Notes under the pieces: model-generated | The model's input: only the letters and a program-made list of their open reading frames with translations | Databases searched by the model: none | Told to the model about the DNA's origin: nothing | Part shown: one piece after another, positions 11,528 through 28,075 of the stretch | Layout of the letters: every line of letters begins with the position of its first letter | Position numbering within the stretch: position 1 is the stretch's first letter | Made by a program: the position numbers and the translations under genes | From: Brachyspira pilosicoli | GTDB taxonomy: Bacteria > Spirochaetota > Brachyspiria > Brachyspirales > Brachyspiraceae | Direction of reading: 5' to 3' | Length of the DNA: 64,000 nt | Assembly (NCBI RefSeq): GCF_036997485.1 | Contig: NZ_JAWLPU010000001.1 | Span: forward strand, 124,001 to 188,000

Positions 11528-11902
11528 TTAGAAAATAATGATTATTAATGTAAATAATATTATTAAAACATATATAGATAAAGAAATTAAAGCCTTTACT
11601 ATAGCATGCTGCTTTCTAGTACCCCAATCGCATCTTGCAGATACGGCTATAAAAGAAATAAAAATACCTATCTGTATAACATTTAATAAAATCAGCATTA
11701 CTAAATTAAATCCAGAAGTGATATTTTTATGTGCCATTATTATAAATGCCGCTATAGGAAAAAGCATAAATATAGAAGCATTAATTATCTTATGTATAAC
11801 AATATATTTACTCATAGCTAAAATTATAATATATATATGTATTATGTCAAATATTTTATATGGTTGTATTTTTATAGAGATATTATCAATTTTTGCATAC
11901 AT
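11528..11902 (-). CDS. Small integral membrane protein of unknown function
   Basis: 124 residues with four predicted membrane helices and one conserved-looking polar loop, 'SARCDWGTRKQHA', before the last helix. It lies directly upstream of kdtA with no spacer, which supports this strand and suggests co-expression with lipooligosaccharide synthesis. The overlapping plus-strand frame (11538-11921) is judged a mirror shadow. No recognised family; the start is uncertain because no strong ribosome site is present. Confidence 0.55.
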   Translation of the reverse strand: MYAKIDNISIKIQPYKIFDIIHIYIIILAMSKYIVIHKIINASIFMLFPIAAFIIMAHKNITSGFNLVMLILLNVIQIGIFISFIAVSARCDWGTRKQHAIVKALISLSIYVLIILFTLIIIIF

Positions 11903-11986: not shown

Positions 11987-12302
11987 ATAGAAATGCAGTT
12001 GTTTTGGTTCTTTTATACCAATAAAAGAACTGGGGTGCTACCCTAAGGGCACGCTTCGCAGGGGGCAAAGCCCTGCAAATATTTCAATTTTAAAAATTCA
12101 TTTTTGACAAAATATAGTTGTTTAGGGATATAGTAAAAATTTTAAAATTTATAAGAAATTAGTTTTTTATTCAACTTTTTCCCGCCGCAAAAAGTGCAAA
12201 CAAAAAAATAATAATATTGATTACATATTTAGCCAAAATGTAGTTCTTTTGATTCTTTAGGTCACACTGAAAGGATACTCCTTCAGTCGCAAAAGAATTA
12301 GC
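11987..12302. repeat. Composite dispersed intergenic repeat, copy 2
   Basis: It occupies most of the gap 11903-12386. It begins with the right-type element (11988-12076, inverted TTCTTTTAT / ATAAAAGAA plus the GC-rich GGGCACGCTTCGCAGGGGG tail). A segment at 12077-12130 follows that is almost identical to 13700-13757, including a TTGACA at 12104-12109; the matching -10 is degraded (GATATA instead of TATAAT). Next comes the CAACTTTTTCCCGCC ... GCAAAAAGTG element (12168-12200) and a partial right element ending near 12302. No gene is seen in the gap. Confidence 0.75.
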
Positions 12303-12386: not shown

Positions 12387-13421
12387 TTGAGAACAATAAG
12401 ATTAGATATAGAAACAAGAGAAAAAAGTTTTTTGTCACCAGCAGCATCATTTTCTTCAAACAGTAAAGGCTGTCAATACCCAAGAGAAGAAGACGATATA
12501 AGAACACTTTATATGCAAGACAGAGATAGAATAATACATAGCGAATATTTTAGAAGATTAAAAGACAAAGCACAAGTAATAATGCTTTCTGTTGGAGACT
12601 TTAGAACAAGACTCACACATACATTAGAAGTAATGCAAATAGCAAGAAGCATAGCAAGAGTATTAAGACTTAATGAAGATTTAACAGAAGCCATAGCATT
12701 AGGTCATGATTTGGGGCATTCGCCATTTGGACATGCTGGTGAGAAAGCTATATCAAAATATTTCAAAGGCTTTCATCATTCTGTGCAATCTTTAAGAGTA
12801 GTAGAGCATTTAGAAAAAGGCAAAGGACTTAACCTCACATTCGAAGTGAGAGACGGTATACTAAAACATACAAAAGGAAAAACAGGAAAATTACTCACAG
12901 ATTCATCAGGACCTTCTACTAATGAGGGTATGATTGTAAGAATTGCTGATACTATAGCCTATGCCAATCATGATGTTGATGATGCTATAAGGTACGGACT
13001 TTTAAATTATCATGATATACCAAAAGATATAATAAATGTTCTTGGAAAAAGTTACGGAGAGAGGGCTGATACTATGATAATGGGAGTAATTAATGCCAGT
13101 ATAGAAAAAATGTCTATAGATATAGATGAAAAAGTATTAAAGGCCATTAATGATTTAAGGGCTTTTATGTTTAAAAATGTTTATGAGAGTAATGAAATAT
13201 TGGAAGATGTTGATAGGGTAAATAGAATAATATCTACTATATTTGAATATTTATTAAAGCATAAAGATATTATTGAAGAAGATAAATTATTTAAAAAAGC
13301 AGATATAGCGTATAACAGCGATGAAGAATTGGTAAAAGACTATGTTGCACATCTCACAGACTCTGAAGCTATAAAACTCCACAAGTCTATTACCTACGGC
13401 AAACTTAATTCTATTTATTGA
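12387..13421 (+). CDS. dgt: dGTP triphosphohydrolase (dGTPase) of the HD superfamily
   Basis: A 344-residue HD-domain protein of the short dGTPase-like type, which hydrolyses dGTP or other dNTPs to nucleoside and triphosphate and so controls nucleotide pools. Metal ligands are visible as 'RLTHTLEVMQIAR' (His) and the HD pair in 'ALGHDLGHSPFGHAGE', with a later Asp in 'RIADTIAYANHDVDD'. 'RRLKDKAQV' near residue 50 is the family's conserved N-terminal block. Translation starts at TTG 12387, about nine bases after AAAAGGA; no in-frame ATG lies nearby. It is flanked on both sides by dispersed repeats. Confidence 0.9.
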   Translation: MRTIRLDIETREKSFLSPAASFSSNSKGCQYPREEDDIRTLYMQDRDRIIHSEYFRRLKDKAQVIMLSVGDFRTRLTHTLEVMQIARSIARVLRLNEDLTEAIALGHDLGHSPFGHAGEKAISKYFKGFHHSVQSLRVVEHLEKGKGLNLTFEVRDGILKHTKGKTGKLLTDSSGPSTNEGMIVRIADTIAYANHDVDDAIRYGLLNYHDIPKDIINVLGKSYGERADTMIMGVINASIEKMSIDIDEKVLKAINDLRAFMFKNVYESNEILEDVDRVNRIISTIFEYLLKHKDIIEEDKLFKKADIAYNSDEELVKDYVAHLTDSEAIKLHKSITYGKLNSIY

Positions 13422-13494
13422 AAATAGTTATACGGAAACAAATATGTACCTAAACAAATACATTTTGTCAATTAATATATTTTTAAATATATTA

Positions 13495-13760
13495 TCAACT
13501 TTTTTGCCGCTCAAAAAAGTTGCAAAAAACGCATATACTACAGCTTAATATTTTAAGAATATGTATTAAATATAACACTATTGTTTCGTATAAAAATGCA
13601 GTCCTTTTGCTTCTTTGGGTCATACCCACAGGTACTTCCTACGGTCACCAAAAGAAGTGTGGTACTACCCTACGGGCACGCTTCGCAGGGGGGCAAAGCC
13701 CTGCAAATATTTTAATTTAAAAAATTCATTTTTGACAAAATATAGTTGTTTAGGTATAAT
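13495..13760. repeat. Composite dispersed intergenic repeat, copy 3, with promoter
   Basis: It fills the gap between dgt and the cbrC-like gene. It has a left element at 13495-13532 (CAACTTTTTTG ... CAAAAAAGTTG inverted pair) and a right element at 13591-13700 with an extra GC-rich block at 13617-13660 and the GGGCACGCTTCGCAGGGGG tail. A conserved AT-rich extension at 13700-13760 ends in TTGACA-17-TATAAT. The short open frame across it has no ribosome site and looks spurious. Confidence 0.75.
13732..13760 (+). promoter_or_regulatory. Perfect consensus sigma-70 promoter inside a dispersed repeat
   Basis: TTGACA at 13732-13737, a 17-bp spacer, and TATAAT at 13755-13760 lie 30 bp before the start of the cbrC-like gene. 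The same sequence in repeat copy 2 has a mutated -10. Confidence 0.75.
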
Positions 13761-13790
13761 TAAAAATAATAAATGATAAAGGAGTATAAA

Positions 13791-14330
13791 ATGTCTAACG
13801 ATATACCTAAATTTAAATATGTCGATGATAATATTGTTAAAAATTTTTTTGAAAAGAAAGATAATAAAGTATTATGCAAATGCTGCGAAAAGGAAACTGA
13901 TTTGGTTTATTATACTATTCCATATTGCGAAGATGATATAGAACCACTATGCCCCGAATGCATAGCAAACGGAAAAGCAGCTAAAAAATTTGATTGTGAT
14001 TTTATTGATGTACCTTTTGACAGTGATAATATTATAGAAAACATAGATGAAAAAATTGCGGAACTCACAAAAAGAACCCCTCAATATTCAGCTTGGCAAG
14101 AGCCATATTATCCAAATCATTGCGATGATTTTTGTAAATTTATTTCTTATGTAGGCTATAAAGAATTAAAAGAAAAAAATTTATTAGATAAAATAATCAT
14201 ATCCTCTGATAATGATGAAGATTCTGTAAGAGAATATATTGAAGATTTAGAAATAGGAGGAAGGGTTCAAGGATATTTGTTTGAATGCTTGAAATGCGGG
14301 CAATTAATTTTGCATACAGACTGCGATTAA
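13791..14330 (+). CDS. CbrC family protein (UPF0167)
   Basis: 179 residues. It matches the CbrC/UPF0167 pattern: 'PKFKYVDDN' at the N-terminus, a first zinc-type site 'CKCCEKE ... CEDDIEPLCPECIANGKAAKKF', the central 'SAWQEPYYPNHCDDFCKFISYVGYKEL', and a last CxxC-type 'FECLKCGQLILHTDCD'. In E. coli cbrC belongs to the creB regulon and is linked to colicin E2 tolerance; the biochemical role is unknown. The frame is open from 13773, but AAAGGAG at 13778-13784 is six bases before ATG 13791, which sets the start. Lying between two dispersed repeats and under a repeat-borne promoter, it looks like an acquired gene. Confidence 0.85.
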   Translation: MSNDIPKFKYVDDNIVKNFFEKKDNKVLCKCCEKETDLVYYTIPYCEDDIEPLCPECIANGKAAKKFDCDFIDVPFDSDNIIENIDEKIAELTKRTPQYSAWQEPYYPNHCDDFCKFISYVGYKELKEKNLLDKIIISSDNDEDSVREYIEDLEIGGRVQGYLFECLKCGQLILHTDCD

Positions 14331-14375
14331 TTTGATATTTGCTGTATATAGCAATTTTTTAAGTTTATCAGAAAT

Positions 14376-14575
14376 AAGTTTTTTATTCAACTTTTTCCCG
14401 CCTTCGCACCTAAAGGTACTCCCTTCAGTCGCCCTAAAGGACTCCTTTCAGTCGCGGTGCGGACTTCGTCAAAGTTTTTGCCATTCTGGCACGCTTCGCG
14501 AAAGTGCAAGTAAAAGAATAATACTAATAATATTTATTATATATTTTTGCCAAAATGTAGTTCTTCGCAAAGAGT
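14376..14575. repeat. Composite dispersed intergenic repeat, copy 4 (expanded)
   Basis: It fills the gap after the cbrC-like gene. The left element (TTCAACTTTTTCCCGCC) is interrupted by a GC-rich expansion at about 14400-14510, which includes an imperfect tandem repeat of about 23 bp (units CCTAAAGGTACTCCCTTCAG and CCTAAAGGACTCCTTTCAG). The tail from 14510 (GTGCAAGTAAAAGAATAATA onward to TGTAGTTCTTCG) matches 12190-12248. No gene is seen. Confidence 0.7.
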
Positions 14576-14678
14576 AATTTTTACGAATTTTACAGAGCAT
14601 ATGTATCAAAAAAGTTGATAACATTTCTATGAGATATAGAGATTCACAAAATGTATTTATTACAATGATGCATCACAA

Positions 14679-23523: not shown

Positions 23524-23561
23524 ATAATTGTTTTATTAACAGAACTATTTGCTAAAATTAA

Positions 23562-24356
23562 TTAAAATGCTTTAGGTCCGAATCTATAGCCAATCTGTGC
23601 ACCTACATCGATACCTGTAAATGGTCTATAATAATAAATATCTGCTTCAGGATAATCATTTAGAGAACTATTATCAGGAATTTTTAATCCGCCTACTCCT
23701 GTAAATGTTGCATATAAACCAAGATTCAAAGCTGAAGTTTCTGTAAAGAATATAGAATAATCTAAACTTAATTTGAAATAAAAACCTACTGGCAATTCGC
23801 TTTTATCAAATTGAGATTTATAATTATCTCCTACTTGATAATTAATCCCATTATCTCCTTTGTATACTATAGAACCTGATACAGGAATTATAATGCCGCC
23901 GCCTATGCCTATAGAAAATGCCTTAATATTAAACTTTGGAAACAAACCAATTTTAAAACTATGAGCAGAAGATGTTATAGGATTTTCTCTTAATTTATCG
24001 CCTTCTTTATAAGTATTATTAGTACCGTACATATAAGTATAATTAGCTGTTATAGTATCAAATCTATACCCTACTTCTCCTAAAAGGCTTATACCAAAAT
24101 TATTAACAACTTGAAACATATAACCAACTTGAGCCTCTACACCTGTTGTAAAACCTAAAAAATTATCAGCAGAATAATAAGCTCTATAAACTTTGTCGCC
24201 ATTATACTGAGCTGTATGATCAATACCCTGCCCCATATCAATATTCATACCTAATGGCACATTAAGTATAAACTCAAATCCGCTTGCTGCGAATGCTGAT
24301 GTGCTTAATGCTGCTGCTAATACAGCTGTGAAAATAATTTTTTTCAAGTGTTTCAT
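23562..24356 (-). CDS. Outer-membrane beta-barrel protein, copy A
   Basis: 264 residues with a cleavable Sec signal (residues 1-23, AFA cleavage site), then alternating polar/aromatic strands typical of an 8-12 strand barrel, for example 'FGISLLGEVGYRFDTITANYTYMYG' and 'LNLGLYATFTG'. It ends in 'IGYRFGPKAF'; a terminal Phe is the usual beta-signal for insertion by the BAM complex. It differs from copy B (27278-28075) at about nine residues, and the first 25 bp upstream of the ATG are also conserved, but the promoters diverge. Surface exposure is inferred; function is unknown. It is the last gene of the array. Confidence 0.85.
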   Translation of the reverse strand: MKHLKKIIFTAVLAAALSTSAFAASGFEFILNVPLGMNIDMGQGIDHTAQYNGDKVYRAYYSADNFLGFTTGVEAQVGYMFQVVNNFGISLLGEVGYRFDTITANYTYMYGTNNTYKEGDKLRENPITSSAHSFKIGLFPKFNIKAFSIGIGGGIIIPVSGSIVYKGDNGINYQVGDNYKSQFDKSELPVGFYFKLSLDYSIFFTETSALNLGLYATFTGVGGLKIPDNSSLNDYPEADIYYYRPFTGIDVGAQIGYRFGPKAF

Positions 24357-27245: not shown

Positions 27246-27277
27246 TAATGTTTTATTAACAGAACTATTTGCTAAAA

Positions 27278-28075
27278 TTAATTAAAAGCTTTAGGTCCGA
27301 ATCTATAGCCAATCTGTGCACCTACATCGATACCTGTAAATGGTCTATAATAATAAATATCTGCTTCAGGATAATCATTTAGAGAACTATTATCAGGAAT
27401 TTTTAATCCGCCTACTCCTGTAAATGTTGCATATAAACCAAGATTCAAAGCTGAAGTTTCTGTAAAGAATATAGAATAATCTAAACTTAATTTGAAATAA
27501 AAACCTACTGGCAATTCGCTTTTATCAAATTGAGATTTATAATTATCTCCTACTTGATAATTAATTCCATCATCTCCTTTGTATACTATAGAACCTGATA
27601 CAGGAATTATAATACCGCCGCCTATGCCTATAGAAAATGCCTTAATATTAAACTTTGGAAATAAACCAATTTTAAAACTATGAGCAGAAGATATTATAGG
27701 ATTTTCTCTTAATTTATCGCCTTCTTTATAAGGATTATTAGTACCGTACATATAAGTATAATTAGCTGTTATAGTATCAAATCTATACCCTACTTCTCCC
27801 AAAACGCTTATACCAAAATTATTAACAACTTGAAACATATAACCAACTTGAGCCTCTACACCTGTTGTAAAACCTAAAAAATTATCAGCAGAATAATAAG
27901 CTCTATAAACATCTTCGCCATTATACTGAGCTATATGATCAATACCCTGCCCCATATCAATATTCATACCTAATGGCACATTAAGTATAAACTCGAATCC
28001 GCTTGCTGCGAATGCTGATGTGCTTAATGCTGCTGCTAATACAGCTGTGAATAATAATTTTTTTAAGTGTTTCAT
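27278..28075 (-). CDS. Outer-membrane beta-barrel protein, copy B
   Basis: 265 residues, near-identical to copy A at 23562-24356. Visible changes are II to LL at residues 7-8, T to I and DK to ED near 48-55, L to V near 90, T to P near 113, T to I near 127, N to D near 168, and one added residue at the end. A one-base deletion relative to copy A changes the ending from KAF to KAFN, so the terminal aromatic residue is no longer last. Signal peptide and barrel strands are as in copy A. It has its own upstream region, different from that of copy A beyond about 25 bp. Two tandem terminators follow it. Confidence 0.85.
   Translation of the reverse strand: MKHLKKLLFTAVLAAALSTSAFAASGFEFILNVPLGMNIDMGQGIDHIAQYNGEDVYRAYYSADNFLGFTTGVEAQVGYMFQVVNNFGISVLGEVGYRFDTITANYTYMYGTNNPYKEGDKLRENPIISSAHSFKIGLFPKFNIKAFSIGIGGGIIIPVSGSIVYKGDDGINYQVGDNYKSQFDKSELPVGFYFKLSLDYSIFFTETSALNLGLYATFTGVGGLKIPDNSSLNDYPEADIYYYRPFTGIDVGAQIGYRFGPKAFN

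Follow-up and report, generated by a model that had tools for sequence, protein, structure and literature searches.

To explain how a gene of the UPF0167/CbrC family came to lie behind a full-consensus promoter sequence, we analysed the window, a 64,000-nucleotide stretch of a 2.72-Mb Brachyspira genome (G000:C1:124001-188000). TTGACA at 13732-13737, a 17-bp spacer and TATAAT at 13755-13760 match the sigma-70 consensus at 12 of 12 positions, and 30 bp separate the TATAAT from the ATG at 13791. The first-pass annotation had described this promoter as the end of a dispersed repeat (copy 3), placed 30 bp before a gene with its own ribosome site, and the description proved exact to the base. The likeness to copy 2 that it had reported was also borne out, the final 70 bp (13689-13758) being 96% identical to 12061-12130 (family D6), and the -10 box of copy 2 is indeed altered in the window. 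The features considered here are collected in Table 1.

Table 1. Positions of the element, its tips and the neighbouring genes and signals in the window
Feature	Position	Strand	Remarks
Promoter-like TTGACA-16-TATAAT of small membrane-protein gene	11823..11850	-	Native, then tttagctATG
Copy 2 tip, point-mutated -10 (TTGACA-17-GATATA)	12104..12132	+	
HD-domain phosphohydrolase (dGTPase-like) gene	12387..13421	+	Upstream of element
Left copy of TA target duplication, degenerate (TG)	13445..13446	.	Tip pairing, boundary model
Complete mobile element, copy 3, 310 bp, inverted tips TACC...GGTA	13447..13756	+	Tip pair and filled/empty-site boundary model
Left tip, inverted; outward on minus strand TTGACA-17-TACATA	13447..13471	-	
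Repeat core (GGCAAAGCC type)	13590..13706	+	Common to 11988-12098 and others
Right tip, TTGACA, 17-bp spacer, TA	13732..13756	+	Faces cbrC-like gene
-10 box TATAAT	13755..13760	+	TA (element) + TA (duplication) + AT (flank)
Right copy of TA target duplication	13757..13758	.	Middle third of -10 box
Predicted transcription start	13767	+	From spacing only
Ribosome-binding site AAAGGAG	13778..13784	+	Also kept in L049, L050, L052, L053
UPF0167/CbrC family gene (PF03691)	13791..14330	+	E 2.1e-44

The cbrC-like gene has a sigma-70 promoter sequence of the form TTGACA-17-TATAAT. The exact pattern occurs 40 times in the genome and the reversed pattern 2 times, so the 12/12 match is not background; sites of this kind are in all likelihood genuine signals in this organism, and the putative cbrC promoter is one among many, not unique. 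Relatives of the gene in named records came from Brachyspira at 4 of 4 loci. Our main reading, to which we give a probability of about 0.83, is that copy 3 is a non-autonomous element that inserts at TA, has outward TTGACA-17-TA ends and keeps or creates a -10 box, and that the junction would drive the CbrC-like gene.

A search of the same genome with copy 3 returned a reverse match at 13447-13488, which represents its own left tip. This inverted second tip (13447-13471) had been overlooked in the first-pass annotation, and 13447-13756 is therefore a complete element with both tips facing outward. RNA folding of this interval gave a z of -6.95, with the outermost helix pairing both tips, and no known RNA family was found between 11000 and 15000 with E values up to 1. 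The element supplies the -35, the 17-bp spacer and the opening TA of the -10 box, the duplicated TA is the middle of the box, and the flank provides the final AT. A boundary at GGTATA without duplication was rejected, as the junctions at birA and DUF3810 agree with GGTA followed by a duplicated TA. The proposal that the repeat carries an outward promoter therefore stands for an outward promoter half, with the full-consensus sequence present at the cbrC-like gene; the repeat itself ends in TTGACA-17-TA.

Matches to the right tip (TTGACAAAATATAGTTGTTTAGGTATA, 27 bp, up to three mismatches allowed) numbered 1281, a total summed by hand, and came from 22 of the 26 Brachyspira genomes, while the reversed control gave 0; 16 copies were in the window's genome and 69 in G007. 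The opposite end is usually a second tip type, with the outward reading TTGACAAACTTAAAAATTTTTAGTATA; a left tip could be paired with 66 of the 85 right tips of these two genomes, some weakly, and most pairs were 140-390 bp apart. TTGACA stands 17 bp before TATA in both tip types despite different spacer sequences. Junctions elsewhere mostly read TATATA, and the idea of a repeat that carries a perfect promoter was rejected, since TATAAT was present at only 3 of the 85 right tips and absent from 82. Repeat copies ending before the promoter segment had been named beforehand as evidence against an outward promoter. Many core copies do end there, and most of the 28 GGCAAAGCC anchors listed had no TTGACA within the next ~60 bp (core copies are a lower bound, with 40 of 261 first-look candidates scored); the tip is nevertheless the real, shared mobile terminus, because different cores, of the GGCAAAGCC, GGGGCTAGTCCCC and GGCGGGAAAAAGTTG types, lie behind it.

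Like MITEs, these elements are short, have no coding capacity, carry terminal inverted repeats, and show a target-site duplication (TA) and empty orthologous sites. The TA duplication is also that of MITEs derived from IS630/Tc1-mariner elements. No autonomous parent sharing these ends was found in a search of the 26 genomes that covered DDE_3 (IS630 type); this profile matched in one genome, as one broken fragment, and an IS630-type parent was rejected on that ground. Because the IS630-type (DDE_3) enzyme was found as that fragment only, we do not file the element under the IS630/Tc1-mariner MITEs. On its tips and structure, the repeat belongs to a MITE-like family that is spread across Brachyspira and has TTGACA-17-TA facing outward at both ends.

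Some further features of the family were observed. A second dispersed module (TTTTTTATTCAACTTTTTCCCGCC...), at 12137-12186 and 14353-14402 of the window, often abuts a tip and resembles the family's other core type. L181 and other tips of G007 abut other tips head to head with a shared TATATA, and in that genome one element apparently inserts into the end of another. The orthologue of copy 2 in G012 (L064) is GGTATATAG; because its -10 there remains TATATA, the GATATA of copy 2 is a T-to-G point change in the window lineage.

Filled and empty orthologous sites were compared by removing the element and one TA and aligning the joined flanks to the empty site. At birA, L225 treated in this way was identical to L226 (G009) at 65/65 positions; the corresponding values were 68/69 at DUF3810 (L286 of G022 against L285 of G009) and 70/75 at pheA (L259 of G007 against L255 of G023). 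The joined flanks of another filled pheA locus, L254, matched at only 45-47 of 75 positions, poorly upstream, so its left side has changed. Among the upstream regions listed, which were tallied by eye with more distant or broken hits left out, elements were present at 2 of 21 birA loci (G022 and G024; the other 19 were without), 2 of 22 DUF3810 loci and 4 of 17 pheA loci. A native TATAAT is kept at the same place in every element-free locus of these sets (birA 19/19, DUF3810 20/20, pheA 13/13), and the box therefore preceded the element at these three genes. This refutes for them the view that elements land at random TAs near genes and that mutations then complete TATAAT, an order of events that we consider improbable overall.

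The target TA corresponds to positions 3-4 of the native TATAAT at all three genes. The native -35 sequences are TTGATA (17 bp, birA), TTTACA (16 bp, DUF3810) and TTTACA (17 bp, pheA), and TTGACA-17 stands in their place at the filled sites. The same box has received different elements: the G022 and G024 elements at DUF3810 have different cores, and the G007 element at pheA differs in core type from that in G009, G022 and G025. In the window, the minus-strand site at 11850-11823 is the element-free counterpart of L319 in G022, which has a left tip in front of the same -10 box and leader sequence. From these comparisons, elements of the family insert at the TA inside the native TATAAT of birA, pheA, DUF3810 and the small membrane-protein gene, rebuilding a predicted promoter with TTGACA-17. 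Insertion into the -10 box leaves a complete promoter sequence because the element ends carry the other half at the right distance.

The tips could also be read as transposase-binding inverted repeats in which TTGACA and TATA are protein-recognition blocks, leaving the TATAAT at the cbrC-like gene without a transcriptional role. Tips in general fit this reading: most end in TATATA, and the next downstream gene is co-oriented for 36 of 81 tips in G000 and G007 (four of the 85, inside ORFs, were dropped), so that a general placement of tips to drive genes was rejected. The -10 of the nearest relative, G016, is TTTAAT, which also agrees with it. What speaks against such a coincidence is the behaviour of the tips with an exact TATAAT. 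The 26 genomes held 22 right and 18 left tips of this class, the right ones a small share of the 1281, with different filters behind the two counts (exact pattern and three mismatches). An ORF of 80 aa or more in the same orientation starts within 60 bp of 30 of these 40 tips (right 17/22, left 13/18), compared with 11 of the 82 non-TATAAT right tips of G000 and G007 (Fisher p 2e-11). Orthologues inflate the 30/40, and grouping by distinct gene, done by hand with L207 counted as negative, gave 16/21 vs 11/82 (p 6e-8). L207, a dubious ORF that runs antisense to a 282-aa frame, counts as positive under the rule, which misses the degraded nuclease-like copies L202, L211, L312 and L317 and the frame-disturbed L313. 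As the TATAAT class was chosen after the first cases had been seen, the left-tip set (13/18) comes closest to an independent replicate. Moreover, the tip is the nearest upstream promoter-like sequence for pheA, birA, smpB, queA, hisH and lolC-like genes, which by eye look like housekeeping genes, and the 17-bp spacing is common to both tip types though their spacers differ. Coincidence is accordingly the account to which we give the least weight, and we regard it as very unlikely.

An element-body match was detected upstream of 38 of the 40 TATAAT tips, 33 of them at E<=1e-10. Seen from the side of the promoters, 14 of the genome's 40 perfect sites have an element match in the preceding 200 bp, several of them weak, and 26 have none; the notion that the perfect promoters are mostly element-made was rejected on this raw count, which carries no intergenic baseline. 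Several TATAAT tips lie only 6 bp before an ATG (birA and nuclease-like genes) and would give leaderless transcripts. In the nuclease-like cases (L202, L204, L211, L218, L221, L308, L312, L317), tips of both types place TATAAT 6 bp ahead of the start codon in several paralogues of one gene that we take to be of the Rpn/PD-(D/E)XK type; some of these paralogues are degraded with the tip intact. TATAAC tips lie 42-43 bp before the same alpha-amylase-like gene (by eye) in G000 (L125) and G007 (L194) and are probably a shared insertion near the gene start.

At the cbrC locus itself, the gene is element-free and close behind another gene in G024, G002, G022 and G009, with ...AAATAATTAAAAGCAATAAA...GGAGTATAAAATG upstream (L049, L050, L052, L053). 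The flank reads AAATAATTAAAA in these 4 of the 5 element-free relatives listed, G014 (L051/L061) differing upstream and a broken copy in G010 being left out of the count, and GGTATAATTAAAA in the window. The window junction is TTTAGG TATAATTAAAAATAATAAATGATAAAGGAGTATAAAATG; an insertion at the TA of AAATAATTAAAA is expected to yield precisely its GGTA + TA + ATTAAAA, and the -10 box of the cbrC-like gene would then be newly made. The left side of the insertion has been rearranged, and the box may alternatively go back to an ancestral TATAAT. This left side reads TG for TA, its flank is unlike that of the relatives, and a dgt-like gene replaces the operon neighbour of the four relatives; because of this, the site before insertion can be rebuilt only with reservation. 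The AAATAAT of these four relatives, in place of TATAAT, would also suit a box completed by later mutation, as would the TATAAC tips of L125 and L194, which look half-completed. G016 has a pair of cbrC-like genes downstream of the dgt-like gene; the orthologue of the window's gene, at 96% identity, also carries the tip, but with TTTAAT as its -10.

The cbrC-like gene might instead be transcribed mainly from the upstream dGTPase-like gene, which would make the tip promoter redundant. The two genes lie on the same strand about 370 bp apart, and the operon-like position of the gene closely behind another in the four relatives agrees with such read-through. The strongly palindromic element between them might hinder passage, and we consider read-through as the main source rather unlikely, with somewhat better prospects than the other two alternatives.

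Under our main reading of a TA-inserting element with half-promoter ends, a MITE-like element of ~140-390 bp (by tip pairing) would insert at TA and duplicate it, with TTGACA exactly 17 bp before the terminal TA and facing outward at both ends. Where the target TA occupies positions 3-4 of TATAAT, or is any TA before AT, the junction would become TTGACA-17-TA.TA.AT; the insertion would keep or create the -10 box, and the consensus -35 of the element would replace the old one. At the 13791 locus this junction would drive the CbrC-like gene. We infer that RNA polymerase uses the junction, that it is the main promoter of the gene and that it has been kept by selection; the earlier suggestion that the repeat was co-opted here is of the same inferential kind, and the TTTAAT of G016 and the rarity of TATAAT among right tips (3 of 85) speak against it. 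A broader idea is that the terminal repeats evolved into target-matched half-promoters, with core promoters as safe harbours and the -35s of housekeeping genes standardised over time across the genus. A preference for TATATA- or TATAAT-like TA sites would often bring the element to -10 boxes, where insertion in either orientation would be harmless or beneficial because each end carries TTGACA at the 17-bp distance. We put this forward tentatively, as possible but less probable than not.

Hybrid promoters are known in which the outward -35 of an insertion sequence is joined to a resident -10, and the insertion sequence usually lands beside the host -10. The Brachyspira element differs in that its target TA lies inside the -10 and its terminal TA becomes part of the rebuilt box. 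The closest likeness is to the Correia repeat enclosed elements of Neisseria, in which, according to the accessible passages of PMC2649163, a -35 and partial -10 lie in the element and insertion sometimes completes the -10 (the 'Black promoter'). These too are small non-autonomous inverted-repeat elements, often with a TA target and a -35 plus partial -10 at the end, and are present in about 100 or more copies per genome, many of them 5' of genes (same passages). The Correia terminal repeat (TATAGYGGATTAA...) was not matched by our tip consensus when compared by eye, the Brachyspira tip being TACCTAAACAACTATATTTTGTCAA, and the host belongs to a different phylum. The passages did not state for Correia elements three features seen here: filled/empty orthologues in which the element has entered a -10 box already present, two genes whose box has received different elements, and TTGACA-17 in both tip types. 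Completion of a -10 by insertion is found here in sequence terms only; by that measure the Brachyspira element works like the Correia Black type and is not a member of it. MITEAba12 of Acinetobacter, likewise a MITE, has a predicted sigma-70 promoter facing outward at each end, with transcripts seen from one; it differs in its 9-bp target duplications, its identified parent ISAba12 and the prediction of promoters from its own consensus (PMC6382973, accessible part). Sigma-70-like promoters of other MITEs are listed in the part of a review available to us (PMC10969869).

Our searches of the open literature found no description of such a repeat in Brachyspira, and the accessible parts of the genome papers PMC2897892 and PMC3532143 do not mention one. 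The logic is thus that known from the Black promoter, and what appears to be new is the comparative evidence for insertion inside a -10 box with rebuilding of the box. It amounts to a repeated natural experiment, with native and element-rebuilt promoter sequences at the same genes in close relatives and base-exact junctions. If transcription is confirmed, the case shows how insertion of a mobile element into the few most sensitive bases of a control region need not silence the gene, and part of the intergenic repeats of Brachyspira would be accounted for.

Two further observations concern the window. The stretch 13421-14640, from the dgt-like gene to a 133-aa lipoprotein-like gene, varies in comparison with G016 (L140) and G012 (L141): it holds one cbrC-like gene in the window, two in G016 and none in G012, and the element copies differ. 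The 300-bp stretches 23555-23854 and 27274-27573 are 98% identical, lie 3.7 kb apart and possibly represent paralogous genes.
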